Source: Intrasporangiaceae bacterium URHB0013
GTDB lineage: Bacteria; Actinomycetota; Actinomycetes; Actinomycetales; Dermatophilaceae
DNA length: 64,000 bases
Assembly: GCA_000620545.1 (NCBI GenBank)
Contig: JIBA01000013.1
Location: forward strand, 372,001-436,000
Direction of reading: 5' to 3'
Of the stretch, positions 956-62,039 are shown in pieces (position 1 is the first letter of the stretch; the number at the start of each line of letters is the position of its first letter). Below the pieces are notes generated by a model. The model saw nothing but the letters and a program-made list of their open reading frames with translations. It was not told where the DNA came from and did no database searches. The translations under genes were made by a program, and so were the position numbers.

Positions 956-2053
956 CTAGAGAGGCTCCGCAGCGTCCCGCACCTCGTGGGTCGGCGCCTC
1001 GAGACCTGCGATCCCCGCCACGACGTGCACCGTCGCCAGGGCTTGGTCGCGAGTCATGCCGCCGCCCACCGCGACGGCCAGCGTGGTGACGCCGGCCGCC
1101 TCGTACCGCCCCAGCCGTCGGGCGACCCGCTCCGGTGAACCGAGCAGCGCCGTCTCGTCGATGAACTCGAGCGGCACGGCGGCCGCAGCCTCCCGGTGGC
1201 GGCCGGCGAGGTAGAGCTCCTGGATGCGCCCCGCGTCCTCCTCGAAGCCCATCCGGCAGGCGAGCTGGTTGTAGAAGTTCTGCTCGCGCGAGCCCATGCC
1301 GCCGATGTAGAGCGCGCAGTAGTCGCGCACGTGGTCGGCCGCCTCCTCGACGTCGTCGACGAGGACCACGGGCGTCGTCGCCACGACGTCGAAGCCCGTC
1401 AGGGGTGAGTCGACAGGCCCCCGCCCGCCCCGCCGACGGCCCGTCTCGAGCGTGGCGAGCAGGTCACGGGCGTGCTCGGGGCTGAAGAAGATCGCGAGCC
1501 AACCGTCGGCGATCTCCCCGGTCAGCTCGAGGTTCTTCGGCCCGACGGCCGCGAGGTAGACGGGCAGGTCAGGGCGCACGGGCCGCGCGGAGAGCTTGAG
1601 CGACTTGCCCGGGCCGTCCGGCAGCGGCAGCGGGTAGTGCGGCCCTGCGTGGCTGACCGTGTCGCGACGCAGCGCAGCGCGGACGATCTCGACGTAGTCG
1701 CGCGTGCGACCGAGCGGGCTGCGGAACGGCACGCCGTGCCAGCCCTCGCTCACCTGCGGACCCGACACCCCGAGACCGAGCCGGAACCGGCCGCCGGACA
1801 TCGTGTCGATCGTCGCTGCCGTCATCGCCGTCATCGCCGGTGTGCGCCCCGGGATCTGCATGACGGCCGACCCGAGCCCGACGTGATCCGTCAGAGCCCC
1901 GATCCAGGCGAGCATCGAGGGGCTGTCGGAGCCGTATGCCTCGGCCACCCAGACGCTGTCGTAGCCGAGCCGGTCCGCAGCCTGGGCGACCGCCACCTGG
2001 TCCGGCCCCGTCGTACCGCGTCCCCAGTAGCCGAGATTCACACCGATCCTCAT
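956..2053 (-). CDS. LLM-class F420-dependent oxidoreductase
   Basis: This 365-residue TIM-barrel protein belongs to the bacterial luciferase-like family; actinobacterial members usually use coenzyme F420. It begins MRIGVNLGYWG and has the family's GGRFRLGLGVSG segment (about 105-116) and the later LAAVGPKN region. The substrate cannot be read from sequence. I chose the ATG at 2053 because a minus-strand TAGCCT (2061-2066) lies seven bases before it, the leaderless pattern used across this window; an upstream in-frame extension runs into the divergent gene and has no family similarity. It lies upstream of uppP on the same strand, separated by about 150 bases. Confidence 0.9.
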   Translation of the reverse strand: MRIGVNLGYWGRGTTGPDQVAVAQAADRLGYDSVWVAEAYGSDSPSMLAWIGALTDHVGLGSAVMQIPGRTPAMTAMTAATIDTMSGGRFRLGLGVSGPQVSEGWHGVPFRSPLGRTRDYVEIVRAALRRDTVSHAGPHYPLPLPDGPGKSLKLSARPVRPDLPVYLAAVGPKNLELTGEIADGWLAIFFSPEHARDLLATLETGRRRGGRGPVDSPLTGFDVVATTPVVLVDDVEEAADHVRDYCALYIGGMGSREQNFYNQLACRMGFEEDAGRIQELYLAGRHREAAAAVPLEFIDETALLGSPERVARRLGRYEAAGVTTLAVAVGGGMTRDQALATVHVVAGIAGLEAPTHEVRDAAEPL

Positions 2054-2060
2054 GGGTCGC

Positions 2061-2121
2061 AGGCTATCGGCGCCGCCTGCGACGTGGCGGCCGGTCGGCA
2101 TGCGGCGTCGACCACTACCGT
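2061..2121. promoter_or_regulatory. Divergent leaderless promoter pair (LLM oxidoreductase / aldo-keto reductase)
   Basis: TAGCCT on the minus strand (2061-2066) lies 7 bases from the ATG at 2053. TACCGT on the plus strand (2116-2121) lies 7 bases from the ATG at 2129. Both fit actinobacterial -10 boxes of leaderless transcripts. No clear -35 boxes are seen. Inferred from spacing only. Confidence 0.5.
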
Positions 2122-2128
2122 TCGTGGC

Positions 2129-3064
2129 ATGCGCAGGCGTCTCGGCTCGTCCGGTCTCTCGGTCACCCCTCTCGCCCTGGGCACCATGTTGTGGGGCAAC
2201 GCCGTCGACCGCCACGAGGCCGGTGACCACCTGCGCGCGTTCCTCGAGGCGGGCGGCAACCTCGTCGACACGGCCTACGGCTACGGCGGCGGTGACTCCG
2301 AGACCATCCTCGGCGGGCTGCTGGACGGCACGGTCGTCCGCGAGGACCTCGTCATCTGCACCAAGGCCGGCATCTCCCGGGTCGGCGGTGAGCGTCGGGT
2401 CGACGTGTCCCGGCGCGGGCTGATGGGCCAGCTGGAGACGTCACTGCGGCGTCTCGGCACCGACCACGTGGATCTCTGGCTCGTGCACACGTGGTCGGAC
2501 GAGGTGCCGCTGTCCGAGACGCTGTCGGCGCTGGAGTGGGCTGCGGCGTCGGGTCGCGCCCGTTACGTCGGCGTGTCCAACTACTCCGGCTGGCAGTCGG
2601 CGCGCGCCTACAGCATGCTCGAGTCAGCACGAATCCCACTGGTGGCCAATGAGATCGAGTATTCCTTGGTATGCCGTACGCCCGAGGACGAGGTCGCGCC
2701 GGCTGCCGCTTCCCTCGGCTTCGGCCTGCTGCCGTGGTCGCCCCTGGGACGTGGAGTCCTGACGGGCAAGTACCGCAACGGCATACCGTCAGGGTCGCGC
2801 GCCGCGTCGACCGACTTCCCGGGCTTTGCCGAGCGCTTCCTCGACGAGCGGACCACCCGCGTCGCGGACGCCGTGGCGATGGCCGCTCGGGGGCTCGGAG
2901 CCAAGCCCGGCGAGGTGGCGCTTGCCTGGGTGCGCGATCGGCCCGGCGTCGCGGCGCCGATCGTCGGAGCCCGCACGTCGGCCCAGCTGCGCTCCGCGCT
3001 CGCGAGCCTCGAGCTCGCGCTTCCGGCGGAGATCGTCGCCGCCCTCGACGACGTCTCTGCCTAG
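2129..3064 (+). CDS. Aldo/keto reductase
   Basis: An NAD(P)H-dependent carbonyl reductase of the AKR family, 311 residues and cytosolic. The tetrad is visible: Asp and Tyr in LVDTAYGYG (about 45-53), Lys in VICTKAG (about 75-81) and His in WLVHTW (about 113-118). The phosphate-binding end APIVGARTSAQL (about 274-285) marks the NADPH site. The ATG at 2129 gives the typical N-terminus MRRRLGSSGLSVTPL and lies 7 bases after TACCGT. Longer in-frame starts would run antisense into the divergent F420 oxidoreductase. Its physiological substrate is unknown. Confidence 0.92.
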   Translation: MRRRLGSSGLSVTPLALGTMLWGNAVDRHEAGDHLRAFLEAGGNLVDTAYGYGGGDSETILGGLLDGTVVREDLVICTKAGISRVGGERRVDVSRRGLMGQLETSLRRLGTDHVDLWLVHTWSDEVPLSETLSALEWAAASGRARYVGVSNYSGWQSARAYSMLESARIPLVANEIEYSLVCRTPEDEVAPAAASLGFGLLPWSPLGRGVLTGKYRNGIPSGSRAASTDFPGFAERFLDERTTRVADAVAMAARGLGAKPGEVALAWVRDRPGVAAPIVGARTSAQLRSALASLELALPAEIVAALDDVSA

Positions 3065-6279: not shown

Positions 6280-6402
6280 GCCGATCAGCGTATGCCGCCC
6301 CCTCCCGACGCCCGCAGCCGCCCGTTTGGTCTTTTGGACACGCCCCGTGTAACGTTTCGCCTCGCCGCAAGGGATTCCCACGAGCCCCTTGCAACGCACC
6401 TT

Positions 6403-8797: not shown

Positions 8798-10066
8798 GTG
8801 ACCTTCCTGCGCGCCCTCTTCACCCTGCTCCGTGGGCGCGGATTCCGTCGGCTGTTCGTCAGCCGCGTCACCTCCTCGTTCAGCGACGGGATCTTCCAGG
8901 TGGCGCTCGCGAGCCACATCCTCTTCAACCCGGAGAAGGCCGCCGACGCCCGGAGCATCGCCGTGGCCTTCGCCGTCGTCCTGCTCCCTTACAGTGCCCT
9001 CGGCCCGTTCGTCGGTGTCCTGCTCGACCGCTGGCCACGACGCCGGGTCATCGTCGTCAGCCAGCTCATCCGCGCCGCGGCCATGCTCGGCGTCGCGGTC
9101 CTGGTCACCACGGCGGAGACGGGCCCGGCCTTCTTCGGGCTGGTCCTGCTCGTCTTCTCCGTCAACCGCTTCATCCTCGCCGGTCTCTCGTCCGCCATGC
9201 CGCACGTCGTCACGCGCGACCGGCTCGTCAGCGCCAACTCCGTTGCGCCGACCTGCGGCTCGCTGGCATACCTGCTCGGCGGAGCCGTCGGCACGGGCGT
9301 GCGTGCTCTCGGGGGCAGCGATGTGCTCGACGTGGTCCTGGCCGCCACCGGGGTGCTCGCGGCGGCGTGGGTCTCCGCGCGCCTGCCCTTCATCGGCCCG
9401 GACGACACGAGCGGGGCCCCGTCCATGGGCCAGATCACCCGCTCAGTGGTGACCGGGCTCGTCGAGGCGGTGCGGTCGTTCCCCCGCCGGGCCTGGCTCC
9501 TGCTCGTCCTCGTCTTCCTGACCCGGATCCCCTTCGGCTTCCTCCTGCTGCAGACCCTCCTGCTCTTCCGCGGGCCCTTCGAGGACGACCACGGGGCGAT
9601 CGGCTTCGGCATCGCTGCCGGGGCAGCCGCGGTCGGCTTTGCCTCCGCCGCGTTCGTCACGCCGTGGCTCGCACCGCGCCTCACGGCCGTGCGGTATGCC
9701 GCCCGGATGCTCGCGATCGGTGCGGTGGTCTGCGGTGTCCTGGGTCCCCTCCTCGTGCCGTGGAGCATCGTCGCCGTCTCCTTCGCCGTCTCCTTCACGT
9801 CGCAGTGCGTCAAGATCACCGTCGACTCGCTCATGCAGGCCCACGTCGGCGACCACCTGCTGGGCCGGGCCTTCTCGGCGTACGACGTCGTCTACAACGC
9901 CGGGATGGTCGCGGCCGCTGCCCTCGGCGCCCTGGTGCTGCCCGAGACCGGGCTGGCGTGGTGGCCGCTCGTCGCGTTCGGCTGCCTCTACGGCACCATG
10001 GCCATGCTGCTCGGCCGACTGTGGGCGCGGGCCACGCGGCTGGACCTCGAGCGGCCACTAGGCTGA
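8798..10066 (+). CDS. MFS transporter
   Basis: 422 residues with the hydrophobicity pattern of a 12-helix major facilitator. The A-like loop VLLDRWPRRRVIVVSQ (about 76-91) follows helix 2, and a long central loop (DDTSGAPSMGQ) separates the two halves. It looks like the MFS_3/enterobactin-exporter-like group, so it is probably a drug or metabolite exporter; the substrate is unknown. GTG 8798 lies seven bases after TACGCT (8785-8790), a leaderless start. It is independent of the ABC operon just upstream. Confidence 0.88.
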   Translation: MTFLRALFTLLRGRGFRRLFVSRVTSSFSDGIFQVALASHILFNPEKAADARSIAVAFAVVLLPYSALGPFVGVLLDRWPRRRVIVVSQLIRAAAMLGVAVLVTTAETGPAFFGLVLLVFSVNRFILAGLSSAMPHVVTRDRLVSANSVAPTCGSLAYLLGGAVGTGVRALGGSDVLDVVLAATGVLAAAWVSARLPFIGPDDTSGAPSMGQITRSVVTGLVEAVRSFPRRAWLLLVLVFLTRIPFGFLLLQTLLLFRGPFEDDHGAIGFGIAAGAAAVGFASAAFVTPWLAPRLTAVRYAARMLAIGAVVCGVLGPLLVPWSIVAVSFAVSFTSQCVKITVDSLMQAHVGDHLLGRAFSAYDVVYNAGMVAAAALGALVLPETGLAWWPLVAFGCLYGTMAMLLGRLWARATRLDLERPLG

Positions 10067-10070: not shown

Positions 10071-10841
10071 GTGCTTCCCGAGCTGACGGCCACCCGCTAC
10101 GTGACGCCGCTCAAGGAGGGTGGCTCGCTGCCGGGCATCGTCGAGGCGGACGACGACGGCACCTACGTCCTGAAGTTCCGCGGCGCCGGCCAAGGGCTCA
10201 AGGTGCTCGTGGCAGAGGTGCTCGTCGCCGGGATCGCGCGACTGCTCGACGTGCCGGTGCCCGACCTCGCTGTGATCCGCCTCGATGCGCGGATCGCCAA
10301 GTACGAGGCCGACGAGGAGGTCCAGGACCTCCTCACGGCCTCCGTGGGGACCAACCTCGGCGTCGACTTCCTGCCCGGCTCCCTCGGCTACGACGGCTCA
10401 CGGCCGCCAGACGCGGACCTGGCCGAGCGGATCATCTGGCTCGACGCGCTGACGGCGAACGTGGACCGCACGTGGTCCAACCCCAACCTTCTCGTCTGGC
10501 ACGGTCGCACGTGGGCCATCGACCACGGTGCCGCGCTCTACTTCCACCATTCGTGGCCGGGCCGGGCGCCGGCACCGGAGCGCTTCGCCGCCCAGCCGTT
10601 CGACGCGAGCCGCCACGTCCGGCGCGACGTCGCCGACGACGTCTCGCGTCGGCACGCCGAGTTCGCCGCCGCGCTCACGCCCAAGGCCGTCGAGGCTGTC
10701 ATCGCCGAGGTGCCCGAGGAGTGGATCGAGCCCACGCCCGACCTGGCCGACGCTGGGGCTGTGCGGGCGGCATACGCCCGGATGCTGCGCGCCCGTCTCG
10801 ACGGTCCGCTCACGTGGGTGCCGACGGACGTCGCCGCGTGA
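10071..10841 (+). CDS. HipA-like kinase (HipA_2 family)
   Basis: 256 residues with a HipA/PI3K-like kinase core. Visible features are a lysine in YVLKFRG (about 25-31), the catalytic Asp and Asn in ANVDRTWSNPNLL (about 128-140) and the metal Asp in WAIDHGAAL (about 147-155), so it looks catalytically intact. There is no HipB-type antitoxin beside it; the partner is instead the coupled DUF3037 gene. TAGGCT (10059-10064) lies six bases before GTG 10071 and overlaps the end of the MFS gene. Its target is unknown; a toxin role should not be assumed. Confidence 0.85.
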   Translation: MLPELTATRYVTPLKEGGSLPGIVEADDDGTYVLKFRGAGQGLKVLVAEVLVAGIARLLDVPVPDLAVIRLDARIAKYEADEEVQDLLTASVGTNLGVDFLPGSLGYDGSRPPDADLAERIIWLDALTANVDRTWSNPNLLVWHGRTWAIDHGAALYFHHSWPGRAPAPERFAAQPFDASRHVRRDVADDVSRRHAEFAAALTPKAVEAVIAEVPEEWIEPTPDLADAGAVRAAYARMLRARLDGPLTWVPTDVAA

Positions 10842-16420: not shown

Positions 16421-16837
16421 CTAGTCCTCCGGGGCCGACGTCTCGAGCTGCGCCAGCAGTGCTCGTGCGTAAGCACGCTCGGCGTCGATGTCAGCGTGGC
16501 GCCCGAGGGTGCCGTTCCGCCCACGGGCGGACACGGCATACCCACCGTCGAGCTGCTCGAGCGAGACGAACGACTCGCCGAGCAGGTCGCGCAGCTGGTC
16601 CTCGCGCGGGAGCCAGACGACCCTGTCCTGCTCGACGCTGTCGAGAGCCCACTCGGTGGTGCCGTTGAAGCCGATGACGTCGCCCGTCGTGAAGTGGTGC
16701 ACGTCGACCGTGATCTCGCTGATGACGAAGACGTCGTCCTCCATGCCGCTGACGGGCACGACGAAGCGGTCACCGGAGACGGGCTTCCACGTGAGTCCCG
16801 CGTCGGAGAGCCGGCGGGCGAGCTCGATGGTCAGCAT
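16421..16837 (-). CDS. Conserved hypothetical actinobacterial protein
   Basis: 138 residues, soluble and acidic. It has a WKPVSGDRFVVP segment, EDDVFVISEITVDVHH, a central IGFNGTTEWALDSVEQ and WLPREDQLRDLLGE. I recognise it as a conserved actinobacterial type but know no function. I chose ATG 16837 (MLTIELARRL) with GGGGGG just upstream; ATG 16846 and a longer frame up to 16873 are possible. It lies 10 bases from the convergent stop of the preceding gene and is divergent from the PIG-L gene. Confidence 0.75.
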   Translation of the reverse strand: MLTIELARRLSDAGLTWKPVSGDRFVVPVSGMEDDVFVISEITVDVHHFTTGDVIGFNGTTEWALDSVEQDRVVWLPREDQLRDLLGESFVSLEQLDGGYAVSARGRNGTLGRHADIDAERAYARALLAQLETSAPED

Positions 16838-16892: not shown

Positions 16893-17627
16893 ATGACCCC
16901 GCCTCCTGAGCTGCAGCCGCTGGACGAGAGCACCTTCGAGACCGTCCTCTGCGTCGTCGCGCACCCCGACGACCTCGAGTACGGGACGGCCGCCGCCGTC
17001 GACAAGTGGGTTCGCGCGGGCAAGACCGTGACCTACCTGCTCGCGACCCGAGGAGAGGCCGGCATCGACACCATGTCGCCGCAGGAGGCCGGGCCGCTGC
17101 GCGAGCAGGAGGAGCGTGATGGTGCGGCAGCGGTCGGCGTCGACGTCGTGGAGTTCCTCGACGGGTTCGCCGACGGCGTGGTCGAGTACGGCCTCCCGTT
17201 GCGTCGCGCCATCGCCCGCGAGATCCGCGTCCGCAAGCCCGACCTGGTCATCACGACGACGTACGCCGACCGCTTCCCGGGCGGCTTCGTCAACCAGGCC
17301 GACCACCGTGCCGTCGGTCTCGCCGTCGTCGACGCCAAGGCCGACGCGGGCAACCGGTGGATCTTCACGGACCTCGTCGACGAGGGCCACGACCCGTGGC
17401 AGGTCGCCCGGCTGCTCATCGTCGCCGACCCCGAGCCGACGCACTTCGTCGACGTCTCCGACCACTTCGACGCCGCGGTCAGGTCGCTCTCGGCCCACGA
17501 CGCCTACCTCTCGGCGCTCGGGCCCGAGTACCCCAAGCCTGCCGACCTGCTCGGCATGATCCTCGGCGGGCCCTCGGAGGCGGTCGGGCTGCCGTATGCC
17601 GTGACGGGCCGACTCGTCGGCGGCTGA
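16893..17627 (+). CDS. PIG-L family deacetylase
   Basis: 244 residues of the LmbE/PIG-L zinc-dependent N-deacetylase family. The metal motif AHPDDLEYG lies at about 23-31, and the third ligand is in NQADHRAVG (about 135-143). Relatives remove acetyl groups from GlcNAc-inositol, mycothiol conjugates or other sugars; which one cannot be decided here (compare MshB and Mca, which are longer). ATG 16893 lies six bases after TAGATT (16881-16886), a leaderless start. Confidence 0.9.
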   Translation: MTPPPELQPLDESTFETVLCVVAHPDDLEYGTAAAVDKWVRAGKTVTYLLATRGEAGIDTMSPQEAGPLREQEERDGAAAVGVDVVEFLDGFADGVVEYGLPLRRAIAREIRVRKPDLVITTTYADRFPGGFVNQADHRAVGLAVVDAKADAGNRWIFTDLVDEGHDPWQVARLLIVADPEPTHFVDVSDHFDAAVRSLSAHDAYLSALGPEYPKPADLLGMILGGPSEAVGLPYAVTGRLVGG

Positions 17628-17738: not shown

Positions 17739-18941
17739 TCAGCTGCCGAGGACCGCCCGGTAGACCTCGAGCGTGCGGTCACCGATGGAGCCCCACGAGA
17801 ACGAGTCGACGGCGCGGTGCCGACCGGCCCGGCCGAAGGCATGGGCCCGGTCGACGTCCGAGACGGCCTCGGTGAGCGCCGCCGCGAGGTCGGCCACGAA
17901 GCGGTCGGGGTCGACCGGCGTGCCGGTGCCGTCCTGGACCTGGTCGATCGGCACGAGCCACCCGGTCTCGCCGTCGACGACGACCTCGGGGATGCCTCCG
18001 GTCGCCGTGGCCACGACGGCGAGCTCGCACGCCATCGCCTCGAGGTTGACGATGCCGAGCGGTTCGTAGACGGACGGGCACGCGAAGACGGTGCCGTGGC
18101 TCAACAGGGCGACCACCTCGTTGCGGGGCAGCATGTCGGGGATCCAGACGACGCCCTCACGCTGGGCTCGCAGCTCCCTCATCAGTCCCTCGACCTCCGC
18201 GAGGATCTCCGGGGTGTCCGGGGCCCCGGCGCAGAGGACGATCTGGACGTCGGGCGGCAGCTTCGCGCACGCGCGCAGCAGGTAGGGCAGGCCCTTCTGG
18301 CGGGTGATGCGGCCGACGAAGACCACCGAGCGCTGGTCGGGGTCGACGCCGTGGCGGCGGACGATGTCAGTGGCCTCGGCGGAACGTTCGGCGGACCACA
18401 GCTGCGAGTCGATCCCGTTGTGCACCACGTGAACCCGTTCCGGGTCGAGGGACGGGTAGCTCCTGAGGATGTCCTCGCGCATGCCTGCGCTCACCGCGAC
18501 GACAGCGGCAGCGGACTCGTAGGCGGTGCGCTCGGCCCACGACGACACGCGGTAGCCGCCACCGAGCTGCTCGGCCTTCCAGGGCCGCATCGGCTCGAGC
18601 GAGTGGGCGGTCACGACGTGCGGCATACCGCCGAGGAGCGACGCGAGGTGGCCGGCCATGTTGGCGTACCACGTGTGGGAGTGCACGAGGTCGGCGCCGA
18701 CGCAGTCGCCGGCCATGCTCACGTCCACGCCGAGGGTCTGCATCGCGGCGTTGCCGCCGGCGAGCTCGGGCAGGTCGGCGTACGCCGTCGTGCCCGCCTC
18801 GTCACGCGCGGCACCGAAGCAGCGCACCTGGACGTCGATGTCGCCCCGGGCACGCAAGGCCCGGACGAGCTCTGCCACATGAACCCCCGCGCCTCCGTAG
18901 ATGGCCGGCGGGTACTCCTTGCTGAGGATGTCGACGCGCAC
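17739..18941 (-). CDS. glgA: Glycogen synthase, GT4 type (GlgA/GlgM)
   Basis: 400 residues of a GT-B glycosyltransferase. The N-terminus has KEYPPAIYGGAGVHV, the acceptor and ADP-glucose loop, and the C-terminal half has VGRITRQKGL and the EX7E-type PSVYEPLGIVNLEAMA. The short length matches the actinobacterial GT4 group, which includes GlgM (maltose-1-phosphate synthase), rather than the longer GT5 GlgA. GTG 18941 lies six bases after TAGGGT (minus strand, 18948-18953). It is divergent from glgC, which supplies its ADP-glucose donor. Confidence 0.92.
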   Translation of the reverse strand: MRVDILSKEYPPAIYGGAGVHVAELVRALRARGDIDVQVRCFGAARDEAGTTAYADLPELAGGNAAMQTLGVDVSMAGDCVGADLVHSHTWYANMAGHLASLLGGMPHVVTAHSLEPMRPWKAEQLGGGYRVSSWAERTAYESAAAVVAVSAGMREDILRSYPSLDPERVHVVHNGIDSQLWSAERSAEATDIVRRHGVDPDQRSVVFVGRITRQKGLPYLLRACAKLPPDVQIVLCAGAPDTPEILAEVEGLMRELRAQREGVVWIPDMLPRNEVVALLSHGTVFACPSVYEPLGIVNLEAMACELAVVATATGGIPEVVVDGETGWLVPIDQVQDGTGTPVDPDRFVADLAAALTEAVSDVDRAHAFGRAGRHRAVDSFSWGSIGDRTLEVYRAVLGS

Positions 18942-20355: not shown

Positions 20356-20420
20356 CACGGCATACGCTCTCCGCGCGGCTGCGTGTCCGCTCCACCGACG
20401 TGCACAGGGCGTATGCCGTG
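20356..20420 (+). terminator. Long inverted repeat after glgC built on the GGCATAC motif
   Basis: A 12-base perfect stem, CACGGCATACGC (20356-20367) with GCGTATGCCGTG (20409-20420), encloses 41 bases. It lies 56 bases after the glgC stop in the 248-base gap before the next gene and may end the glgC transcript. Confidence 0.55.
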
Positions 20421-21446: not shown

Positions 21447-22178
21447 GTGCTGACAGCGACCTTCTGGGGCCTCGTCGGCGGGGCCGCGCTGCTCGTGGGA
21501 GCCCTCCTCGGGCTCTACGCGCGTGCCTCGTACCGGGTCATCGGTCTCGTCATGGCCTTCGGTGCGGGCGTGCTCATCAGCGCCGTCGCCTTCGAGCTCA
21601 CCGAGGAGGCCTTCCGGTCCGCCGGGGTGGCGCCCGTCGTCGTCGGCCTCGTCAGCGGGTCGCTCGTTTTCTTCCTCGGCGACTGGCTCATCGACCGTCG
21701 CGGGGGTCACCGGCGCAAGAGCCCGACCGGCGGGCCGCAGCAGGGCGCCGGCGCGATGGCGCTCGTCCTCGGGGCCCTGCTCGACGGCATACCCGAGTCG
21801 GCAGCGATCGGCGTCAGCGTGCTCGGCGGAGGGGAGGTCGGCATCGCGATGGTCGCTGCCGTGTTCCTCTCCAACGTGCCGGAGTCGATGTCGGCCAGCG
21901 CCGGCCTCAAGCGGGCCGGACGCTCCACGCGTCAGATCCTGCGCCTCTGGTTCATCGTCATGCTGGCGTCGGGACTCGCGGCCGGCCTCGGCTACGTGCT
22001 CCTCGAGGGGGCCTCACCCGCAGTCGTGGCGGGGATCCAGACGTTCGCGGCCGGTGCCATCATCACGATGCTCGCCGACACGATGATCCCCGAGGCGACC
22101 GAGCACGCGGGTCGCCTCGTCGGCCTCGTGACGATGCTCGGCTTCGCGCTGGCCTTCCTTCTCAGCGCGCTGGGCTGA
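21447..22178 (+). CDS. ZIP-family metal transporter
   Basis: 243 residues with about eight membrane helices. The conserved helix 4/5 metal site is visible as LGALLDGIPESAAIGVS and FLSNVPESMSAS. The histidine of the usual HNxPEG and HxxPE motifs is changed here to Asp or Asn, as in some actinobacterial members. A short His/Arg loop (RRGGHRRKS) lies between helices 3 and 4. It probably imports zinc, iron or manganese. GTG 21447 follows the stop of the F420 oxidoreductase by one base. Confidence 0.87.
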   Translation: MLTATFWGLVGGAALLVGALLGLYARASYRVIGLVMAFGAGVLISAVAFELTEEAFRSAGVAPVVVGLVSGSLVFFLGDWLIDRRGGHRRKSPTGGPQQGAGAMALVLGALLDGIPESAAIGVSVLGGGEVGIAMVAAVFLSNVPESMSASAGLKRAGRSTRQILRLWFIVMLASGLAAGLGYVLLEGASPAVVAGIQTFAAGAIITMLADTMIPEATEHAGRLVGLVTMLGFALAFLLSALG

Positions 22179-22213: not shown

Positions 22214-22242
22214 CGCCACCGGCCGTATGCCGGAAGGTGGCG
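22214..22242 (+). terminator. Hairpin terminator after the ZIP gene
   Basis: CGCCACC (22214-22220) pairs with GGTGGCG (22236-22242) around a loop that contains a GTATGCC motif and can form inner GG/CC pairs. It lies 35 bases after the ZIP stop codon. Confidence 0.5.
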
Positions 22243-24454: not shown

Positions 24455-24541
24455 GTCCCGTTCGTCCCGCCGCACACCGCACCACCGGTCGACCAGGTAT
24501 GCCGCACGGCACGTCCCGCACGACCCCGTAGGAGGAGATCC

Positions 24542-37887: not shown

Positions 37888-39822
37888 TCACACGTGGTCC
37901 AGGGCGGCGTCGCTCGTCAGGTCCTCGAGCTCACCCCGGTCGGCACGTCCGGGGCGCTCGGTCACCTGGTCGTCGAACTGCGTCGCGTGGAGGTCGGCAT
38001 ACAGGCCGCCTGCGGCGAGCAGCTCGGAGTGCCGGCCGGTCTCGACGACCCGGCCGTGGTCGAGCACGACGATGAGGTCCGCCTGGCGGATCGTCGAGAG
38101 CCGGTGCGCGATGACGATCGAAGTGCGGCCCTCGAGGGCTGCGTCGAGCGCCCGCTGCACGGCGACCTCGGACTCGGAGTCGAGGTGGGCGGTCGCCTCG
38201 TCGAGGACGACGACGTCGGGGGCCTTGAGCAGCAGCCGCGCGATGGCGAGGCGCTGCTTCTCACCGCCGCTCAGTCGGTGGCCTCGGTCGCCGACGACCG
38301 TGTCCAGGCCTTCGGGGAGCTCGGCGACCAGGTCGCTGATCTGCGCGGCTCGCAGCGCTGAGTGGATGGCGTCGTCGGTGGCGTCCGGTCGCGCGTAGAG
38401 CAGGTTGGCCCGGATCGTGTCGTGGAAGAGGTGCGCCTCCTGCGTGACCACGCCGACGCGGTCGCGCAGCGACGTCATCGTGACGTCGCGCAGGTCACGG
38501 CCGCCGATGCGCACGGCCCCCTCGCTCGGGTCGTAGAGCCGGGCCACGAGGGAGGTCAGGGTCGTCTTGCCCGCTCCGGACGGCCCTACGAGCGCGACGA
38601 GATGACCGGCCGGCGCGCCTACGGTGATGTCGTTGAGCACCACGCCGCTGCCCCGGCGGTCGCCGGAGGCGACGGACTCGAGGGACGCGAGCGAGACCTC
38701 GTCGGCCGACGGGTAGCGGAACGCCACGTGCTCGAGCTCGACTCCGAGAGGCCCGTCGGGCAGGTCGACGGCGCCGGGGCTCTCCTTGACGAGCGGCTCG
38801 AGGTCGAGGACCTCGAACACGCGCTCGAAGGAGATGAGCGCCGTCATGATGTCGACGCGGACGTTGCTCAGCGAGGTCAGCGGCCCGTAGAGGCGAGCCA
38901 GCAGCGCCGCCAGCGCGAGCAGCGTGCCGACCGAGAGGGTGCCGTTGACCGCCATGACGCCACCGAAGCCGTAGACCATGGCCGTCGCGAGCGCCGCGAC
39001 GAGCGTCAGCGCCGCCATGAACACGGTGCGGTTGAGAGCGATCTGGATGCCGATGTCACGCACCCGGCCGGCGCGCTCGGCGTACTCGGCCTCCTCGCGG
39101 GCCGGCGTGCCGAAGAGCTTGACGAGCAGCGCGCCTGCGACGTTGAAGCGCTCGGTCATCCGCGTGCCCATGTCGGCGTTCAGGGTCATCTGTCGATGAG
39201 CGAGGCTCGCGAGGCGCTTGCCCATGAGCTTGGCGGGGATGAGGAAGAGCGGCACGAGCAGCAGCGAGCCGAGCGTCAGCTGCCACGACAGTGCGAGCAT
39301 CGCGCCGACGACGAGCACGACGGACACGACGTTGGCGACGACGTTGGACAGCACAGACGTGAACGCCTGCTGGGCACCGACGACGTCGTTGTTGAGCCTG
39401 GAGACCAGCGAACCGGTCTGGGCCCGCGTGAAGAACGCGATCGGCTGGCGGAGCACGTGGCCGAAGACCTGGGTGCGGAGGTCGTTGATGAGCCCCTCAC
39501 CGATACGGGAGGAGTACCACCGCGAGATGATCGTCAGCACGGCGTCGACGATCGCGATCGCCGCCACGACGAGGGACAGTCGCACGACGACCGACGAGTC
39601 CTGGGGAATCACGCCGTCGTCGACGAGACTCTTGAGCAGCAGCGGAACGGTCACGACGAGCACGGAGTCAAGGACCACGACCGCGAGGAAGCCGACGATG
39701 GCCCTGCGGTACGGCCGGGCGTAGGTCAGGACGCGCCGACGCGTGCCCGGCGCGAGGCTTCGGTCGGCCACCGACGAGTCACGCGACATCGATCGCATCG
39801 CCATCCACGGCTGCATGCCCAC
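37888..39822 (-). CDS. ABC exporter with fused membrane and ATPase domains
   Basis: 644 residues. A six-helix membrane domain (about 35-340) has the exporter segment FTRAQTGSLVSRLNNDV. An ATPase domain follows: Walker A VGPSGAGKTTLTSL, Q-loop VTQEAHLF, signature LSGGEKQR, Walker B VVVLDEATAHLDSES, H-loop IVIAHRLSTI. A loop of about 20 residues (SVASGDRRGSGVV) before Walker A is an insert. It should work as a homodimer or heterodimer exporting lipid or drug. GTG 39822 has AGGAGGT seven bases upstream; ATG 39816 is two codons later and also usable. Confidence 0.9.
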   Translation of the reverse strand: MGMQPWMAMRSMSRDSSVADRSLAPGTRRRVLTYARPYRRAIVGFLAVVVLDSVLVVTVPLLLKSLVDDGVIPQDSSVVVRLSLVVAAIAIVDAVLTIISRWYSSRIGEGLINDLRTQVFGHVLRQPIAFFTRAQTGSLVSRLNNDVVGAQQAFTSVLSNVVANVVSVVLVVGAMLALSWQLTLGSLLLVPLFLIPAKLMGKRLASLAHRQMTLNADMGTRMTERFNVAGALLVKLFGTPAREEAEYAERAGRVRDIGIQIALNRTVFMAALTLVAALATAMVYGFGGVMAVNGTLSVGTLLALAALLARLYGPLTSLSNVRVDIMTALISFERVFEVLDLEPLVKESPGAVDLPDGPLGVELEHVAFRYPSADEVSLASLESVASGDRRGSGVVLNDITVGAPAGHLVALVGPSGAGKTTLTSLVARLYDPSEGAVRIGGRDLRDVTMTSLRDRVGVVTQEAHLFHDTIRANLLYARPDATDDAIHSALRAAQISDLVAELPEGLDTVVGDRGHRLSGGEKQRLAIARLLLKAPDVVVLDEATAHLDSESEVAVQRALDAALEGRTSIVIAHRLSTIRQADLIVVLDHGRVVETGRHSELLAAGGLYADLHATQFDDQVTERPGRADRGELEDLTSDAALDHV

Positions 39823-42843: not shown

Positions 42844-42902
42844 ACGGCATACGTCCTCGGGTTCGGGCGGTGCCGGTGGCGTCGGTCAGTGGCGTATGCC
42901 GT
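42844..42902. repeat. Inverted pair of GGCATAC motifs upstream of the FemX gene
   Basis: ACGGCATACG (42844-42853) and CGTATGCCGT (42893-42902) are exact reverse complements enclosing 39 bases. Same family as the elements at 20356-20420 and 30633-30652. Confidence 0.7.
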
Positions 42903-42957: not shown

Positions 42958-44076
42958 GTGAACGCGCCCATCTCCGTTCGTGACATCACCGCAGCCGAGC
43001 ACCTCGCCTGGCTGCGGACCCAGCCGTCGGCCAGCTTCCTCCAGACGCCGGCCTGGGCCGCCGTCAAGAAGGAGTGGCGCGCCGAGTCGGTGGGCTGGTT
43101 CGAGGGCGAGGAGATGGTGGGCGCGGCGCTCGTCCTGCACCGGTCGCTCCCGCGCATCAAGCGTTCGCTGGCCTACGTGCCCGAGGGGCCCGCCATCGAC
43201 TGGGCCTCGCCGCGGCTCGTCGAGCTGCTCCGCGCCCTGCGCGACCACGTCAGGGCCAAGGGTGCGTTCGCGCTCCGGCTCGGACCGCCCGTCGCCACGC
43301 ACCGCTGGCGCACCGCCACGATCAAGGCGGCCATCGGGGACCCGGCGGTCCGTCGCTACGACGAGGTCGCGCCCGACGTCGTGGAGCCGGTGGGCACGGC
43401 CGTCGTGGCGCAGCTGGAGCGGCTGGGGTTCCGGCACCTCAGCCCGGACGACGGCTTCGCCGCCGGGCAGCCGGAGTACGTGTTCCAGGTGCCGCTCGCC
43501 GGACGCACCGAGGCCGACGTGCTCGCGGGCATGAACCAGCTGTGGCGCCGGAACATCAAGAAGACCGCCAAGAACGGCGTCGAGGTCCGCATCGGTGACG
43601 CGTCCGACCTCCCGGCCTTCCATCGCACGTACGTCGAGACGGCCGAGCGCGACCGCTTCACGCCCCGCGGTCTCCCCTACTTCGAGACGATGTATGCCGC
43701 GCTGAGCTCCGAGGACCCCGAGCGGATCCGCGTCTACCTGGCCGAGCACGATGGCGACGTCCTCGCGGCAACGGTCTTCATCCGGGTCGGCGAGCACGCC
43801 TGGTACTCCTACGGCGCTTCGACGGCGGCCAAGCGTGAGCTGCAGGGATCGACGGCGATCCAGTGGCGGATGATGCAGGACTCGATCGCTGCCGGAGCGT
43901 CGGTCTACGACCTCCGCGGCATCACGAACACCGTCGACGAGTCCAACCCGCACATCGGCCTCATCCGTTTCAAGGTGGGCACCGGTGGGGAGGCCGTGCG
44001 GCTGGCCGGCGAGTGGGACCTCCCTCTGAACCGCTTGCTCTACAAGGCTTTTGACCTCTACATGAAGCGGCGGTGA
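42958..44076 (+). CDS. FemAB/FemX-type aminoacyl (lipid II) transferase
   Basis: 372 residues with two GNAT-like domains. The N-terminal half has FLQTPAWAAVKKEWRAES (about 27-44) and YVPEGPAIDW. The second half has a GMNQLWRRNIKKTAKNGVEV segment and the family end LIRFKVGTGGEAVRLAGEWDLP. FemX-type enzymes add the first amino acid of the peptidoglycan cross-bridge to lipid II from aminoacyl-tRNA. GTG 42958 lies eight bases after TAGCGT (42944-42949). The PLP gene begins six bases after its stop. Confidence 0.9.
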   Translation: MNAPISVRDITAAEHLAWLRTQPSASFLQTPAWAAVKKEWRAESVGWFEGEEMVGAALVLHRSLPRIKRSLAYVPEGPAIDWASPRLVELLRALRDHVRAKGAFALRLGPPVATHRWRTATIKAAIGDPAVRRYDEVAPDVVEPVGTAVVAQLERLGFRHLSPDDGFAAGQPEYVFQVPLAGRTEADVLAGMNQLWRRNIKKTAKNGVEVRIGDASDLPAFHRTYVETAERDRFTPRGLPYFETMYAALSSEDPERIRVYLAEHDGDVLAATVFIRVGEHAWYSYGASTAAKRELQGSTAIQWRMMQDSIAAGASVYDLRGITNTVDESNPHIGLIRFKVGTGGEAVRLAGEWDLPLNRLLYKAFDLYMKRR

Positions 44077-48545: not shown

Positions 48546-49164
48546 CGTCGCCGACCGTCGACTCGGTGAGCTCGATGCGCACGGCCCGGCCACGCCGCAG
48601 CGCGGTCTCGAGGACGTCGCGCTTCGGGTCGGGCAGGTCGTAGAGCTCACGCATCGGCAGCCCCGCGAGGGCCCTCAGGGCCCCGGCGGCGAGGACGTCG
48701 CGCACGAGCGCGCGATCGCCGCCGACCACCAGCGCCCGAGGTATGCCGTCCGCTCCCGCCGCCGGTGACTCGTCGTCCCCGAGGAGCACCCGTCGCGCGT
48801 GGCCCACGACGGCGTCGACGAGCTCGTCCGCCTGCTTGCCCCGGCGCCGCGCGAAACGCTGCTGCGACCAGCCGCCGGCAGCGGTGCGGGACTGGACATG
48901 GCGGGACCCGACCTTCGAGACCGTTAAGGCGCCCGCGGGGGCCAGCCCCACGGCATACCCACCTCGACGGACGAGGATGACGCCGAGGGGGACGTGGGCG
49001 AACGGCCTTGCCACCACAGTGGATCCGTCTGCAGCTCGCGCGGACATGACGACGCCGCCGGGAGTGGTCTCCTCGGCGGCGTCGTAGGGGCCGTGTCGCT
49101 CGGCGAAGCGTGCCATCCACCCGTCGAACCGTGCGGGGTCGACCTCGATGACGCGCGTCGTCAC
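48538..49164 (-). CDS. acVLRF1-family peptidyl-tRNA hydrolase (ribosome rescue)
   Basis: 208 residues of the actinobacterial Vms1-like release-factor-1 group, which cleaves peptidyl-tRNA on stalled ribosomes. The catalytic loop SRTAAGGWSQQRFARRRGKQ (about 90-110) holds the Gln used in place of the GGQ motif. Flanks include GGVVMSARAADG and the second part VVGGDRALVRDVLAAG. GTG 49164 lies 20 bases after the sufT stop on the same strand, with no terminator between, so it appears to belong to the SUF transcript. The family role is from literature knowledge; activity here is inferred. Confidence 0.85.
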   Translation of the reverse strand: MTTRVIEVDPARFDGWMARFAERHGPYDAAEETTPGGVVMSARAADGSTVVARPFAHVPLGVILVRRGGYAVGLAPAGALTVSKVGSRHVQSRTAAGGWSQQRFARRRGKQADELVDAVVGHARRVLLGDDESPAAGADGIPRALVVGGDRALVRDVLAAGALRALAGLPMRELYDLPDPKRDVLETALRRGRAVRIELTESTVGDVS

Positions 49165-54798: not shown

Positions 54799-55673
54799 GA
54801 GGAACCTTCCTTGACGTGCGTGAGCGTGTCGGTGCTCGTGCGGGTCGTGCTCGTGCGTGGCGTACGCGTGGCCGGGCGAGTGCGCGGCGTGGTCTGGTTG
54901 GTCTGGGTGTTCTGGACGGCCTGAGCGTCAACGCCCGGGGCCTCGGTCGTCTTCCGCGCGCGGGCGCCGATCCCACCGGTCGGGACGAATGTCGTGCAGA
55001 CGTGGTGTCCGCCCGCGAGGGTGGCAAGGCGCTGGACGTGCACTCCCAGGAGGCGGGAGAACGCATCGGTCTCGGCCTCGCAGAAGGCTGGGAACTCGGT
55101 GGCGACGTGCTGCACCGGGCAGTGCCCCTGGCACAGCTGGACGCCGGTCAGGCCGCCGGCGCCGACGGGACGGGCGGTGGCGGCGAAGCCGTCCTCGCTC
55201 AGCGCCTCGACGAGGGCCTCGGTGCGAGCGGCGGGGTCGTCCCCTGCCGCAGCGAGGCGGGCGGCATACCGCTCCTCGAGCGCGCCGACCCGGCTGCGGG
55301 CGAAGTCGCCCACGGCCGCGGGCCCCGCGTGCTCCTCGAGGTAGCGCAGCACCTCGACGGCGAGCGAGTCGTAGTCGGCCTCCAGGGCGCTGTGCCCGGC
55401 GTCGGACACGACGTAGGCACGGGCGGGACGGCCGCGACCGCGGCGGCCGCCGGTGGGCTCGTGCGGCACGACGACACCCTGCTCCACCAGCGCGTCGAGG
55501 TGACGGCGCACGGCGGCGGGAGTGAGGTCGAGGTGACGGCCCAGCTCGGCCGCCGAGATCGGGCCGTCGGTGGAGACCATGTGGAGGACCCGCGAGCGCG
55601 TGCGTGACTCGAGCGGCGAGACGTGCTCGCCGTCCCTGATCTCACGCGGTGCGTGCTCTCCGAAAAACACCAC
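54795..55673 (-). CDS. sufR: SUF operon regulator SufR
   Basis: 292 residues. A winged helix (about 20-90, [24 protein letters not shown]) is followed by a ligand domain whose Cys ([14 protein letters not shown] and HVCTTF) can hold a 4Fe-4S cluster. The last 50 residues are Thr/Arg-rich and low-complexity, an unusual tail. SufR represses suf genes when clusters are sufficient. GTG 55673 is the first of two GTG codons in a row; the second (55670) fits a CACAAT box six bases away. Four-base overlap with sufB. Confidence 0.92.
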
Positions 55674-58316: not shown

Positions 58317-59089
58317 GCACCGCAGCCACCCCGAAGCCGACGACCGCGCGCGCCGCTGCCCCGAGCAGACGGGTCCTGACCCAGGCCGGGTTCGAGGTCG
58401 GGAGCCTGCTCCGCAACGGCGAACAGCTCCTCGTCTCCCTCGTGCTCCCCGCCTTGACGCTCGTCGGGCTCAGCATGACGAGCACCCCGTCCCTCGGCCC
58501 TGGCACGCGGATCGACGTCGCGACGCCAGGGGTCATCGCACTGTGCGTCATCTCCGCCGCATTCACCGCGCAGGCCATCTCGACCGGCTTCGACCGGCGC
58601 TACGCGGTGCTGCGCTACCTCGGCGTCACACCGCTCGGGCGGGGCGGCCTCGTCGCGGCCAAGGTGCTCGCGACGCTCGCCGTCGAGGCGATCCAGATCG
58701 CGCTCATCGCCGTGCTCGGACTCGTCCTGGGGTGGCGACCCGACGTCTCGGGCATCCCGTATGCCGTCCTCTTCGTCATCCTGGGCACGTGGGCATTCGT
58801 GGCCCTGGCCCTCCTGCTCGCGGGAACCCTCCGGGCCGAGGCGGTGCTCGCGATCGCCAACCTCGTGTGGGTGCTGCTCCTCGCGCTGGGCGGTGTCATC
58901 GTCCCCCGGACCGAGCTTCCGGCGGGTGCGTCTGCCGTCGCGGCCTACCTGCCCTCGGCGGGACTCGCCGACGGGCTCCGGTCGGCGCTCGTCGAGGGGC
59001 AGCTGAACCTTCCCGCCCTCGGTGTCGTCCTCGCGTGGGGACTGGTGGGCACGGTTCTCGCGGCGCGTCTCTTCCGCTTCGACGACTGA
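58313..59089 (+). CDS. ABC-2 exporter permease
   Basis: 258 residues with about six membrane helices, beginning after GFEVGSLLRNGEQLLVSLVLPALTL. The coupling region is TGFDRRYAVLRYLGVTPLGRGGLVAAK. Ala/Thr/Pro-rich N-terminus. GTG 58313 overlaps the ATPase stop. The exported substrate is unknown. Confidence 0.9.
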   Translation: MSTAATPKPTTARAAAPSRRVLTQAGFEVGSLLRNGEQLLVSLVLPALTLVGLSMTSTPSLGPGTRIDVATPGVIALCVISAAFTAQAISTGFDRRYAVLRYLGVTPLGRGGLVAAKVLATLAVEAIQIALIAVLGLVLGWRPDVSGIPYAVLFVILGTWAFVALALLLAGTLRAEAVLAIANLVWVLLLALGGVIVPRTELPAGASAVAAYLPSAGLADGLRSALVEGQLNLPALGVVLAWGLVGTVLAARLFRFDD

Positions 59090-59727: not shown

Positions 59728-59859
59728 CCTGGCCCGCCGGAGGACGCTTGTCCCCACCTGCGCGGAAGCAGCCCGGCCCCTGCGGAGTGGGTCCGCAGTG
59801 ACGACCGAGCCCATCCGGGCGATGCGGGGTGACCGCGCCGGGCGGCATACCCTTGCGGG

Positions 59860-60825
59860 GTGTCCTCCACGCCAACCGTGACCGACGCCGGCCCTGCGAC
59901 CGGCACGAGCCGTCTCGCCCGGGCCGCCGGTCGTCTTCCCGCCGTCCCGTCCCGTTGGGTGCGTCCACTGCTGCTGGCCAACCTCGTCGGTGAGGTCGGC
60001 ATCGTCGTCACCGGGGGCATCGTGCGCCTCACCGGTAGCGGCCTCGGGTGCAGCACGTGGCCGGAGTGCCAGCCCGGCTCGTTCACGCCCGTGCGCACGC
60101 CCGAGAGCGAGATCCACGACCTCGTCGAGTTCGGCAACCGCACGCTGACCGGCGTCGTGGGCGTCCTCGCCCTGGCGTCGCTGTGGGTCGTGCTCACGCA
60201 CTGGCCGGCGCGCCGACGGCTCCACCTCGTCGCGGTCGGAGTCCTCGCCGGCATCCCCGCGCAGGCCGTCCTCGGTGGCATCACGGTCCTGACGGGGCTC
60301 AACCCGTGGACCGTCATGTCGCACTTCCTGCTCTCTATGGTGCTCGTCGCACTGTCGACCGCTCTCGTACGGGGAGCACGCGACGACGGGTCGGGCCCTG
60401 GCGAGCTCCTCGTGCACCCGCTCGCGCGCACCCTGGCCCTGGGCACGAGCGCGGTCGGGGCGGTCGTGCTGCTCCTCGGCACCATCGTCACCGGGTCGGG
60501 CCCGCACTCGGGGGATGCCGTCCGGCCCGCGCGCACCGGTTTCGACCCGCGCTTCGTGTCGTGGATGCACGCCGACGCCGTCATGCTCTTCTGCGGTCTC
60601 GTCATCGCCACCCTGGTCGCGGTCAGCATCTCGGCCACCACCGACGAGGCCCGCCGAGCCTGGACCATGGTCCTGCTCGTCACACTCGCCCAGGGCCTCG
60701 TCGGCTACGTGCAGTACTTCACCAAGCTGCCCGAGCTGCTCGTCCTCGTGCACATGCTCGGTGCCAGCCTGCTCGTCGTCGCCCTGACGTTCGGCGTGCT
60801 GGCCACCAGACGCCACCCGGTCTGA
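59860..60825 (+). CDS. ctaA: Heme A synthase (COX15/CtaA)
   Basis: Oxidises haem O to haem A for cytochrome oxidase. 321 residues with eight helices. Family signatures are GGIVRLTGSGLGCSTWPEC (about 46-64), which includes a loop Cys pair with CQPG, HDLVEFGNRTLTG, SHFLLSM and later SWMHADAVMLF and LVLVHMLGA, giving the haem-binding His. GTG 59860 lies six bases after TACCCT (59848-59853), a box that overlaps a GGCATAC motif. It pairs functionally with ctaB. Confidence 0.93.
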   Translation: MSSTPTVTDAGPATGTSRLARAAGRLPAVPSRWVRPLLLANLVGEVGIVVTGGIVRLTGSGLGCSTWPECQPGSFTPVRTPESEIHDLVEFGNRTLTGVVGVLALASLWVVLTHWPARRRLHLVAVGVLAGIPAQAVLGGITVLTGLNPWTVMSHFLLSMVLVALSTALVRGARDDGSGPGELLVHPLARTLALGTSAVGAVVLLLGTIVTGSGPHSGDAVRPARTGFDPRFVSWMHADAVMLFCGLVIATLVAVSISATTDEARRAWTMVLLVTLAQGLVGYVQYFTKLPELLVLVHMLGASLLVVALTFGVLATRRHPV

Positions 60826-60977
60826 GGGCCGCACGGCGCGCCATCGACCAGCGGACGCCGGATGCCCACCCACCGCGCGCCCGGTCGGACGTCGCGGTCG
60901 TCGACAGGGCCGGCGGCGTTCGAGCCGACCCCGCTCCGCACGGGCCTCGACCGGACGGTCTTCCATAGGCTGGGGCG

Positions 60978-61991
60978 GTGACCGACCAGCCGACCCTGCG
61001 CGCCGGCGAGCTCGTGCTGAGGCCCTGGACGCTCGAGGACAGCGACGTGACCCGGCCCCTGCACGACCGCGAGATGGCCCGCTGGTTCGACTTCCCCGAG
61101 ACCCTGCCGCCCACCGACGAGCACCGGGCCTGGATCGAGCGGACCCACGACGAGTGGTCCGACCGGTCCAGGGCGACCTTCCTCGTCGAGTGGCGCGGAC
61201 GCGGCGCCGGCACCGTCGACGTCCGCGTCCAGGATCCGGGCATCGGAGTGCTGTCCTGGGCGGTCTTCGCGCCGTTCCGCGGACAGGGGCTGGCGTGGCG
61301 AGCCGTGCGACTCCTCGTCGAGTGGGCCTTCGACGCGCTCGATCTCGAACGTGTCGAGGCGCACGTCAACCCCGACAACCGCGCGTCGGTGCGCACCGCC
61401 CTGCGTGCCGGCCTCCGCCGCGAGGGCCACCTGCGCGGAAACGCGACCCTCGCCGGCGTGCGCCAGGACACCGTGGTCCTCGGACGGCGCCGTGAGGACG
61501 CGCACCCGGACACCCGAGAGGGCTTCACCGCGATGCTCGACTCGAGCCTGCCCACCAAGCGCGCCATCGCCCAGGGCGTCCTCCGCTCGGACTCCGGGCA
61601 GCTGCTGCTCTGCGAGCTCGTCTACAAGCGCGAGTGGGACCTGCCCGGCGGTGTCGTCGACCGGTTCGAGTCCCCTGCGGCCTGCGTCGTCCGAGAGGTT
61701 CGCGAGGAGCTGGACCTCGTCGTCACTGCAGGACCGCTGCTCGCCGTCAACTGGCTTCCGGCCCTGCACGGCTGGGGTGACGCGACGGTCTTCGTCTTCG
61801 ACCTCGGGACCGTGCAGGCCGACGTCATCGGACGGGCCCACCTGCAGCAGCGAGAGATCCGCGACGTGCACTGGACGGCACCGGACGACTGGGCGGGCCG
61901 GGTCGCGCCCTACAACGAGCGACTGCTCATGGCCCTGCACGCACACGACGGCGGCACGCTCTACCTCGAGGACGGCACGCCCACGCGGTGA
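60978..61991 (+). CDS. GNAT acetyltransferase-NUDIX hydrolase fusion
   Basis: 337 residues. Residues 1-175 are a GNAT domain (RPWTLEDSDVTRPLHDREMARWF, then VFAPFRGQGLAWRAVRLLV as the acetyl-CoA loop and LERVEAHVNPDNRASVRTALRAGL). Residues about 185-337 are a NUDIX domain with the box GGVVDRFESPAACVVREVREELDL. The substrates of both are unknown; they may be linked in nucleotide or damage-control metabolism. GTG 60978 lies six bases after TAGGCT (60966-60971). The stop converges on ctaB. Confidence 0.87.
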   Translation: MTDQPTLRAGELVLRPWTLEDSDVTRPLHDREMARWFDFPETLPPTDEHRAWIERTHDEWSDRSRATFLVEWRGRGAGTVDVRVQDPGIGVLSWAVFAPFRGQGLAWRAVRLLVEWAFDALDLERVEAHVNPDNRASVRTALRAGLRREGHLRGNATLAGVRQDTVVLGRRREDAHPDTREGFTAMLDSSLPTKRAIAQGVLRSDSGQLLLCELVYKREWDLPGGVVDRFESPAACVVREVREELDLVVTAGPLLAVNWLPALHGWGDATVFVFDLGTVQADVIGRAHLQQREIRDVHWTAPDDWAGRVAPYNERLLMALHAHDGGTLYLEDGTPTR

Positions 61992-62039
61992 CCGCGCCAC
62001 CCGGCATACGCCCTCGGGGTCTCGGTGCAGCCGCTGCAG

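Follow-up and report, generated by a model that had tools for sequence, protein, structure and literature searches.

What is an eight-letter word doing 26 times in 64,000 nucleotides of bacterial DNA? The stretch concerned, called the window throughout, comprises positions 372,001 to 436,000 of contig JIBA01000013.1 (assembly GCA_000620545.1) of Intrasporangiaceae bacterium URHB0013, and the word is the octamer CGGCATAC. An earlier note on this DNA had counted 28 copies of the heptamer GGCATAC/GTATGCC, 26 of them extended to the octamer, and a recount agrees in full: the first heptamer stands at position 1934, and the last octamer ends at 62009. The excess over chance is likewise real: about two octamers had been allowed for at a GC content of about 72%; GC measures about 71%, 1.2 copies are predicted when a Markov model of third order is fitted to the window, and 100 dinucleotide shuffles gave a mean of 0.89 and a maximum of 4. 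Under the Markov model CGGCATAC is the best-scoring 8-mer of the window. It is not identical to its own reverse complement, i.e., it is non-palindromic, unlike words of the HIP1 type. On the evidence that follows, CGGCATAC is probably a DNA uptake sequence with dialects, of the kind represented by the DNA uptake sequence (DUS) of Neisseriaceae and the uptake signal sequence (USS) of Pasteurellaceae, here in a Gram-positive family; this reading draws on comparison of sequences.

Is the window a special place? The genome as a whole (4,567,713 bases in 17 contigs) holds 1,988 copies, balanced between the strands (1,011 forward, 977 reverse), and a control, the same word read backwards, occurs 248 times (135 + 113). 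Over 436 contiguous kb of the same contig, 176 copies stand against 3.0 expected from an order-3 and 6.8 from an order-4 model with the word masked, the contrary of the count near the third-order value that the earlier note had named as the outcome speaking against its claim. Four of the 1,680 letter permutations of CGGCATAC are commoner than the word in this contig, so that the raw count alone would not pick it out; the Markov excess does. A composition artefact is ruled out by the Markov and permutation controls together with the codon control described below. On the 436-kb stretch the strands carry 93 and 83 copies, and the most uneven of seven 62.5-kb bins has 18 and 8 (p 0.08, origin and terminus not being placed).

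The word occurs about once per 2.3 kb in this genome, and about once per 0.7 kb in the densest relative (G352). Its spacing on the 436 kb is roughly random, with near-exponential gaps (mean 2,447, standard deviation 2,178). There, 128 copies are genic, 47 intergenic and one lies at an edge (117 genic and 58 intergenic by a second gene call). Density rises from 0.34 per kb in genes to 0.69 in tandem, 0.82 in divergent and 1.46 in convergent gaps; intergenic enrichment, one of the checks that had been proposed, is thus present, as is the balance of strands. In the window itself, a simple gene caller places 11 of the 26 octamers between genes, as had been estimated, and nine of the 15 genic ones are read as TAT-GCC, the frequent use that the note had remarked upon. 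The immediate flanks are biased (A 49% and G 34% at position -1, G 61% at +1), and among the 25 nt examined on each side no other position is clearly biased save for codon periodicity. Near-matches are also in excess: one-mismatch words number 354 against 237 expected and two-mismatch words 3,928 against 3,710, the former excess being largely CGGCATCC (117 against 48). Neighbouring pairs closer than 100 bp are twice as common as expected on the 436 kb (14 against 7.0), and the window has three inverted pairs that are predicted to form hairpins. The tightest of these, at 30633-30652, has both arms kept in 7/7 relatives, with flanks 72-78% identical.

A word may be abundant without being looked after. 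Is this one maintained? The window was compared with seven genomes of the same genus, 85.5-89% identical over aligned bases. Of 111 aligned cells, 86 have CGGCATAC intact (52/70 coding, 34/41 intergenic); for random 8-mers the corresponding figures are 9,393 of 23,489 coding (40%) and 935 of 2,567 intergenic cells (36%). The same upkeep is visible at synonymous sites: where a TAT codon lies inside the word, 33 of 42 cells still have TAT, and for TAT codons outside it five of 54 do; GCA codons are kept in 7/7 cells inside the word and in 58/563 elsewhere. As many as 77 of the 193 TAT codons of the 436 kb fall within CGGCATAC. By the second gene call on this contig, 67 of 89 tyrosines in the word-making frame are written TAT, compared with 109 of 2,172 at other positions. 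In three genomes that use CGGCATCC instead, it is aspartate that yields: GAT is chosen in the word frame 10/12, 12/21 and 33/36 times, and elsewhere 78/908, 40/1,094 and 72/1,085 times (4-9%). No such codon effect was found in four wordless genomes. The codon effect follows the dialect. It is the DNA word that is kept; a general codon bias would not behave in this way.

How far does the word reach? In a survey of 198 genomes of the order, this one included, CGGCATAC is rich only within its own family: 14 of the genomes belong there, eight of them rich (1,192 to 2,982 copies), and the 184 genomes of other families hold 0 to 167 copies, mostly no more than about three times the backwards-word control. 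Within the family, at least 400 copies are present in 106 of 186 genomes, our own included, and the word is rich in 30 of 53 genera, which answers the call for a check of related genera; the maximum is 4,724 copies in 4.2 Mb. Isolated word-poor species do occur within rich genera (G203, G274, G302). A ComEC-based search led to named relatives, and CGGCATAC was counted over the whole genomes of 20 named records, among them Humibacillus xanthopallidus (3,225), Knoellia remsis (3,277), Phycicoccus elongatus (2,614), Ornithinimicrobium cavernae (1,637) and Intrasporangium flavum (66), with 26 to 199 copies in others (one Kribbella, two Nocardioides, a Jiangella, Streptomyces lavendulae, an Actinomadura and an Amycolatopsis). 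The word-bearing family spans the labels Intrasporangiaceae and Ornithinimicrobiaceae, and we take it to be the Dermatophilaceae of GTDB. When a single locus of 14-20 kb from each genome was scanned for k-mers without guidance, CGGCATAC or an overlapping word came first in 10/10 of the rich genomes sampled and in 0/10 of the poor ones. On a single-gene ComEC tree of 32 rows (locus L032 is absent from it), word state takes seven changes; at least five are forced by well-supported branches, and loss or replacement has therefore happened repeatedly.

Do the poor relatives carry another word? Unguided k-mer scans covered samples of 49-100 kb from genomes poor or intermediate in the word, and in some word-poor relatives a variant one or two letters off, CGGCATCC, CGGCGTAC or CGCCGTAC, is the leading signal or among the leading ones. 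The sample signal is CGGCATCC in g79, g84 and g116; CGGCGTAC, or GGCGTACG contained in it, in g75, g77, g8 and g102; and CGCCGTAC in G274. CGTCATAC is a second word in the G353 sample, and CGGCATTC occurs 15 times against 0.9 expected in one 22-kb locus of a Phycicoccus metagenome-assembled genome. Counting was genome-wide for CGGCATAC, CGGCATCC and CGGCGTAC; CGCCGTAC, CGTCATAC and CGGCATTC come from samples only. Seven genomes of g79, g84 and g116 have 2,099-4,480 copies of CGGCATCC (3,816-4,480 in g79, in g116 and in one g84 genome made up of a single contig), and all others at most 1,336. CGGCGTAC reaches 2,111-4,185 in g102; two g75 genomes have 2,366 and 2,618 copies, a g76 genome has 2,529 and g77 has 2,216; the word stays below 660 in most other genomes and is intermediate (752-1,463) in G136, G274, G207, G201, G213, G331, G333 and the same-genus G360. 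Genome G229 has two words, 1,217 CGGCATAC and 2,195 CGGCATCC, and old and new word also coexist in G230, G331 and G333; to judge from these counts, the pairs G229/G230 and G331/G333 look like dialect switches under way. The signal in the sample of G213 (g80) is weak, and the samples from G346 (g112), G214 (g4), G231 (g85), G203, G302, G206 (g76), G215 (g81), G284 (g104), G198 (g74) and G262 (g97) yielded no clear word of the CGGCATAC type.

Abundance, balanced strands, dialects, an excess of near-matches and synonymous upkeep are together what a DUS or USS would be expected to leave behind, and a receptor-driven bias of uptake through Tad and Com proteins is the simplest account of them; upkeep and dialects are the main evidence. 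How might it work? DNA shed by kin, bearing CGGCATAC every 2.3 kb or so at the density of our genome, would be bound at the cell surface by a receptor, for which a minor pilin of a competence pilus of the Tad/Flp type is the likeliest candidate, and ComEA and ComEC would bring one strand inside. Recombination would then favour word-bearing alleles, so that copies accumulate and stay. Should the preference of the receptor shift, the genome would follow and a dialect arise (CGGCATCC, CGGCGTAC, CGCCGTAC and perhaps CGTCATAC and CGGCATTC); should the machinery be lost, the word would erode. From all this we infer the receptor, the bias of uptake and the competence of the organism.

The genes for such a route are present. 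In Micrococcus luteus, transformation needs comEC and genes of two tad clusters, according to excerpts of PMC4322843. The ComEA, ComEC and Tad genes of our genome were identified by Pfam, and they include three tad clusters, the labels tad-1-like and tad-2-like resting on gene order. The tad-1-like cluster encodes TadA, TadB, TadC, an Flp-like open reading frame, a TadE protein, a 167-aa protein and a Tad/TadG-like protein; the 167-aa protein has a G/RAILEF site and no Pfam match, and is a putative minor pilin. Another cluster is of the Flp type. In the third, TadA is accompanied by a weak TadE match and by a single T2SSF match within a 497-aa frame, which may be a fusion of TadB with TadC like that of M. 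luteus tad-2. Beside the tad-1-like cluster lie two small same-strand proteins of 152 and 174 aa (L233, 12441-13788) with N-termini that by eye resemble signal peptides.

Across the family, ComEC is found in 180 of 186 genomes and T2SSF proteins in 183 of 186, and comEA adjoins comEC in 19 of the 20 loci read (relaxed pattern). Being near-universal in the genomes and loci examined, ComEC, ComEA and T2SSF were rejected as simple determinants of the word. The tad-1-like TadA was sought in the 163 genomes at least 90% complete, presence meaning a match to our tad-1-like TadA better than 1e-52; a genome was word-positive with at least 400 CGGCATAC or as a listed dialect genome, a threshold set after the data were seen. 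TadA went undetected in 10 of the 163, all word-negative, and in none of the 108 word-positive (hypergeometric 1.1e-5 by genome, kinship ignored). By genus, the six TadA-absent genera all fall among the 14 negative of 48 (2.4e-4, again ignoring kinship; 0.0012 without g96, a genus in which the 167-aa protein was detected). In seven of the 163 the only TadA matches are weaker ones (E 3.8e-56 to 5.1e-91), and these genomes were scored present. This suggests less of the word where the tad-1-like TadA ATPase is missing. The 167-aa protein is detected in 165 of 186 genomes and undetected in five wordless genera, as well as in G220 and G256; as a determinant of the word it was rejected, being undetected in seven word-positive genomes.

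Several observations weigh against an uptake sequence served by these genes. With a stricter cut (E <1e-100), TadA is absent from 12 of 55 negative and five of 108 positive genomes (Fisher p 0.002), the five word-positive genomes without a full match being G265, G122, G306, G309 and G312. The word-positive genomes in which the 167-aa protein was undetected are G359, G228, G265, G122, G278, G312 and, by elimination, G363; two of the seven are less than 85% complete, and G265, G122 and G312, with a weak TadA and no 167-aa match, may be real exceptions. Many wordless genomes also carry Com and Tad genes, which are consequently at most necessary. No clear dialect-linked residues were seen by eye in three tad-1 proteins from 30 genomes. 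Nor is the codon split between dialects clean, strong as it is: in our own genome GAT is raised for aspartate in the word-like frame (12/70 against 447/7,572, 6%), and tyrosine is TAT in the word frame of the CGGCATCC genomes only 2/5, 0/5 and 2/5 times. Inverted order among the close pairs of the 436 kb (9 of 14) shows no significant bias. CGGCGTAC is raised in several ComEC loci of Nocardioides (L178, 22 against 2.4 expected; L154, L161, L202), and part of its signal may reach wider than the family. Lastly, no paper on natural transformation in Intrasporangiaceae was found in the open-licence literature.

Could another function explain the word? Besides an uptake-like word, which is the best supported of its suggestions, the earlier note had proposed a protein-binding or modification site and the remnants of small mobile hairpins. 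If the word were bound by an abundant protein that organises the chromosome or has a regulatory role, and the specificity of this protein drifted from genus to genus, the site would also be maintained, strand-balanced, genome-wide and restricted to a lineage. Such a site fits the dialects and the link with Tad and Com less well, however: 15 of the 26 window copies are genic, nine of them using the rare codon TAT, the gaps between copies are close to random, and sister genera, like lone species of rich genera, have the word at background level. No other gene is linked to the word here, and absence of the tad-1-like TadA tends to accompany its absence. We regard a drifting protein site as unlikely. 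A signal for recombination or segregation such as Chi or KOPS fares worse, and the chance that CGGCATAC is one is slight: Chi and KOPS are strand-biased, and the copies of CGGCATAC are shared almost evenly between the strands over the genome and over the 436 kb, the most uneven bin having 18 and 8. That CGGCATAC is a short over-represented octamer, and that Chi words too vary by species (PMC3630211, in excerpt), is what can be said in its favour.

Genome-wide octamers of unknown role do exist: HIP1, a palindromic word of cyanobacteria, is one of them. The lack of a palindrome in CGGCATAC counts against a word of this kind, as its abundance does against a restriction site, since restriction sites tend toward avoidance in genomes. 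The dialects replace one non-palindromic word by another, and synonymous codons are under selection for them; we know of no methylation site that does so, and it is accordingly very improbable that CGGCATAC serves modification or restriction or is a word like HIP1. Some copies form inverted pairs, as remnants of small mobile hairpins (REP/MITE-like) might; yet there is no longer shared unit around CGGCATAC, the flank bias is limited to one base on each side, and 128 of the 176 copies are genic, so that this candidate was rejected. Taken together with an artefact of composition, against which both the count of 176 for 3.0 expected and the codon control speak, it is scarcely credible.

With a DNA uptake sequence retained as the preferred explanation, what would be new about it? 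According to the excerpted text of PMC12616744, only Neisseriaceae and Pasteurellaceae are known for uptake tags, and the same two families are named in excerpts of PMC5031613 (2016). The DUS of Neisseriaceae, whose receptor is ComP, is a short continuous word that a genome holds about 900 to almost 6,000 times, and in this CGGCATAC is alike. The DUS dialects lie a few bases apart, with two dialects in one genome, as in our family, and many one-mismatch words occur, again as with CGGCATAC; DUS also forms inverted pairs at terminators, to which the folding pairs of the window may correspond (DUS features from excerpts of PMC3630211). The differences are as plain: the sequence of CGGCATAC is unrelated, the hosts are Gram-positive with high GC, the pili are Tad/Flp instead of type IVa, and the uptake bias is a proposed one. 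The USS of Pasteurellaceae is similar in its 9-nt core, high copy number and subclade variants, and it has inverted repeats (PMC12616744, as excerpted); it differs in sequence, phylum and pilus, and CGGCATAC has no strong AT-rich stretch within 25 nt on either side. As for the machinery, the comEA-comEC and tad clusters of M. luteus transformation recur in our genome, as do, in its loci, putative minor pilins that carry the processing site G/xxxxE[FS] (PMC4322843, in excerpt), although our genome has a third, Flp-type tad cluster. The main text of that paper contains neither 'uptake sequence' nor 'DUS'. The letters of the word, on either strand, occur in 3,142 papers, none of those listed being about uptake words to judge by title and abstract, and searches on uptake sequences in Actinobacteria, Actinomycetota, Micrococcales and Gram-positives likewise brought up no account of an uptake-like word for these bacteria among the open-licence papers listed.

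The kind of system is therefore already known; the phylum, the type of pilus and the word would be new. A bolder claim, to which we would give even odds, is that in this family the sequence-specific uptake of self DNA was invented independently for a third time, and for the first time in Gram-positives and beyond the Proteobacteria, with tags based on a Tad/Flp pilus, three dialects counted genome-wide and up to three more in samples, genomes in mid-switch, and a strand-balanced, hairpin-paired, unrelated CCCCCTTCGC replacing the tags in one sister clade (g9 and g5). If true, self-DNA tags arise repeatedly and with different pili, and many little-studied actinobacteria are predicted to be naturally transformable. 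Dialect switches, two-dialect genomes and losses would be natural experiments on a receptor changing together with thousands of sites.

The individual copies in the window illustrate these features; fractions give the aligned same-genus relatives that keep CGGCATAC, three of the 26 sites having no aligned relative. Nine genic copies use TAT GCC: 9694..9701 (- strand, gene 8798-10066, 7/7), 16534..16541 (+, gene 16421-16846, 7/7), 17594..17601 (-, gene 16893-17627, 5/7), 36702..36709 (-, gene 36508-37266, 4/5), 37995..38002 (+, gene 37888-39771, 0/5), 43692..43699 (-, gene 42958-44076, 2/5), 48951..48958 (+, gene 48538-49164, 3/3), 55262..55269 (+, gene 54795-55673, 2/2) and 58759..58766 (-, gene 58313-59089, 1/1). 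Gene 48538-49164 holds another at 48741..48748 (-, GGC ATA C, 3/3), and gene 2129-3064 also has two, at 2669..2676 (-, codons GTA TGC CGT) and 2779..2786 (+, GGC ATA C). The remaining genic copies are 10768..10775 (+, gene 10071-10841, GCA TAC, 7/7), 18621..18628 (+, gene 17739-18941, ATG CCG frame, 2/7) and 21785..21792 (+, gene 21447-22178, GGC ATA CCC, 4/5).

Between genes, single copies lie at 6290..6297 (-, divergent genes, 5/5), 22225..22232 (-, 3/6), 24497..24504 (-, 4/7), 59843..59850 (+, 1/1) and 62002..62009 (+, convergent genes, no aligned relative). The others form the inverted pairs. The pair 20358..20365 (+, left arm) and 20411..20418 (-, right arm) has a predicted fold of -41.6 kcal/mol and no aligned relative at either arm; 30633..30640 (+) and 30645..30652 (-), each kept in 7/7, make up the hairpin CGGCATAC-GAAC-GTATGCCG at -19.4 kcal/mol; 42845..42852 (+, left arm, 3/4) and 42894..42901 (-, right arm, 4/4) would fold at -30.9 kcal/mol.

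Other words came to light along the way. In g5 (L028, L057-L060) and g9 (L053-L056, L026), which are sisters in the ComEC tree, the unrelated CCCCCTTCG(C) is over-represented about 15-fold, strands balanced: G066 has 42 copies in 100 kb and G249 has 33 in 80 kb. Its close pairs are inverted in 7/8 cases in g5 and 2/2 in G249, and in g5 its intergenic density is about ten times higher than elsewhere; this may be another uptake-like word, unrelated to the first. In G273 of g99 (L025, L065-L068), CCGCATCG is 4.7 times over-represented (76 per 100 kb) and has a GCAT core like that of CGGCATAC; this may be another dialect. In G369 of g6 (L073-L076, L029), CCGCACCTA and AGTAGGTGC are over-represented, with 16 and 17 copies per 100 kb, and words such as CCGCTAACG and AGCGTTAGC have eight copies each; the latter words appear to be one longer repeat family. 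Finally, in the word-poor G203 of g3 (L093-L095), a string around AATCCGCG/GGATTCACG recurs in seven to nine copies in 60 kb and is probably a dispersed repeat.

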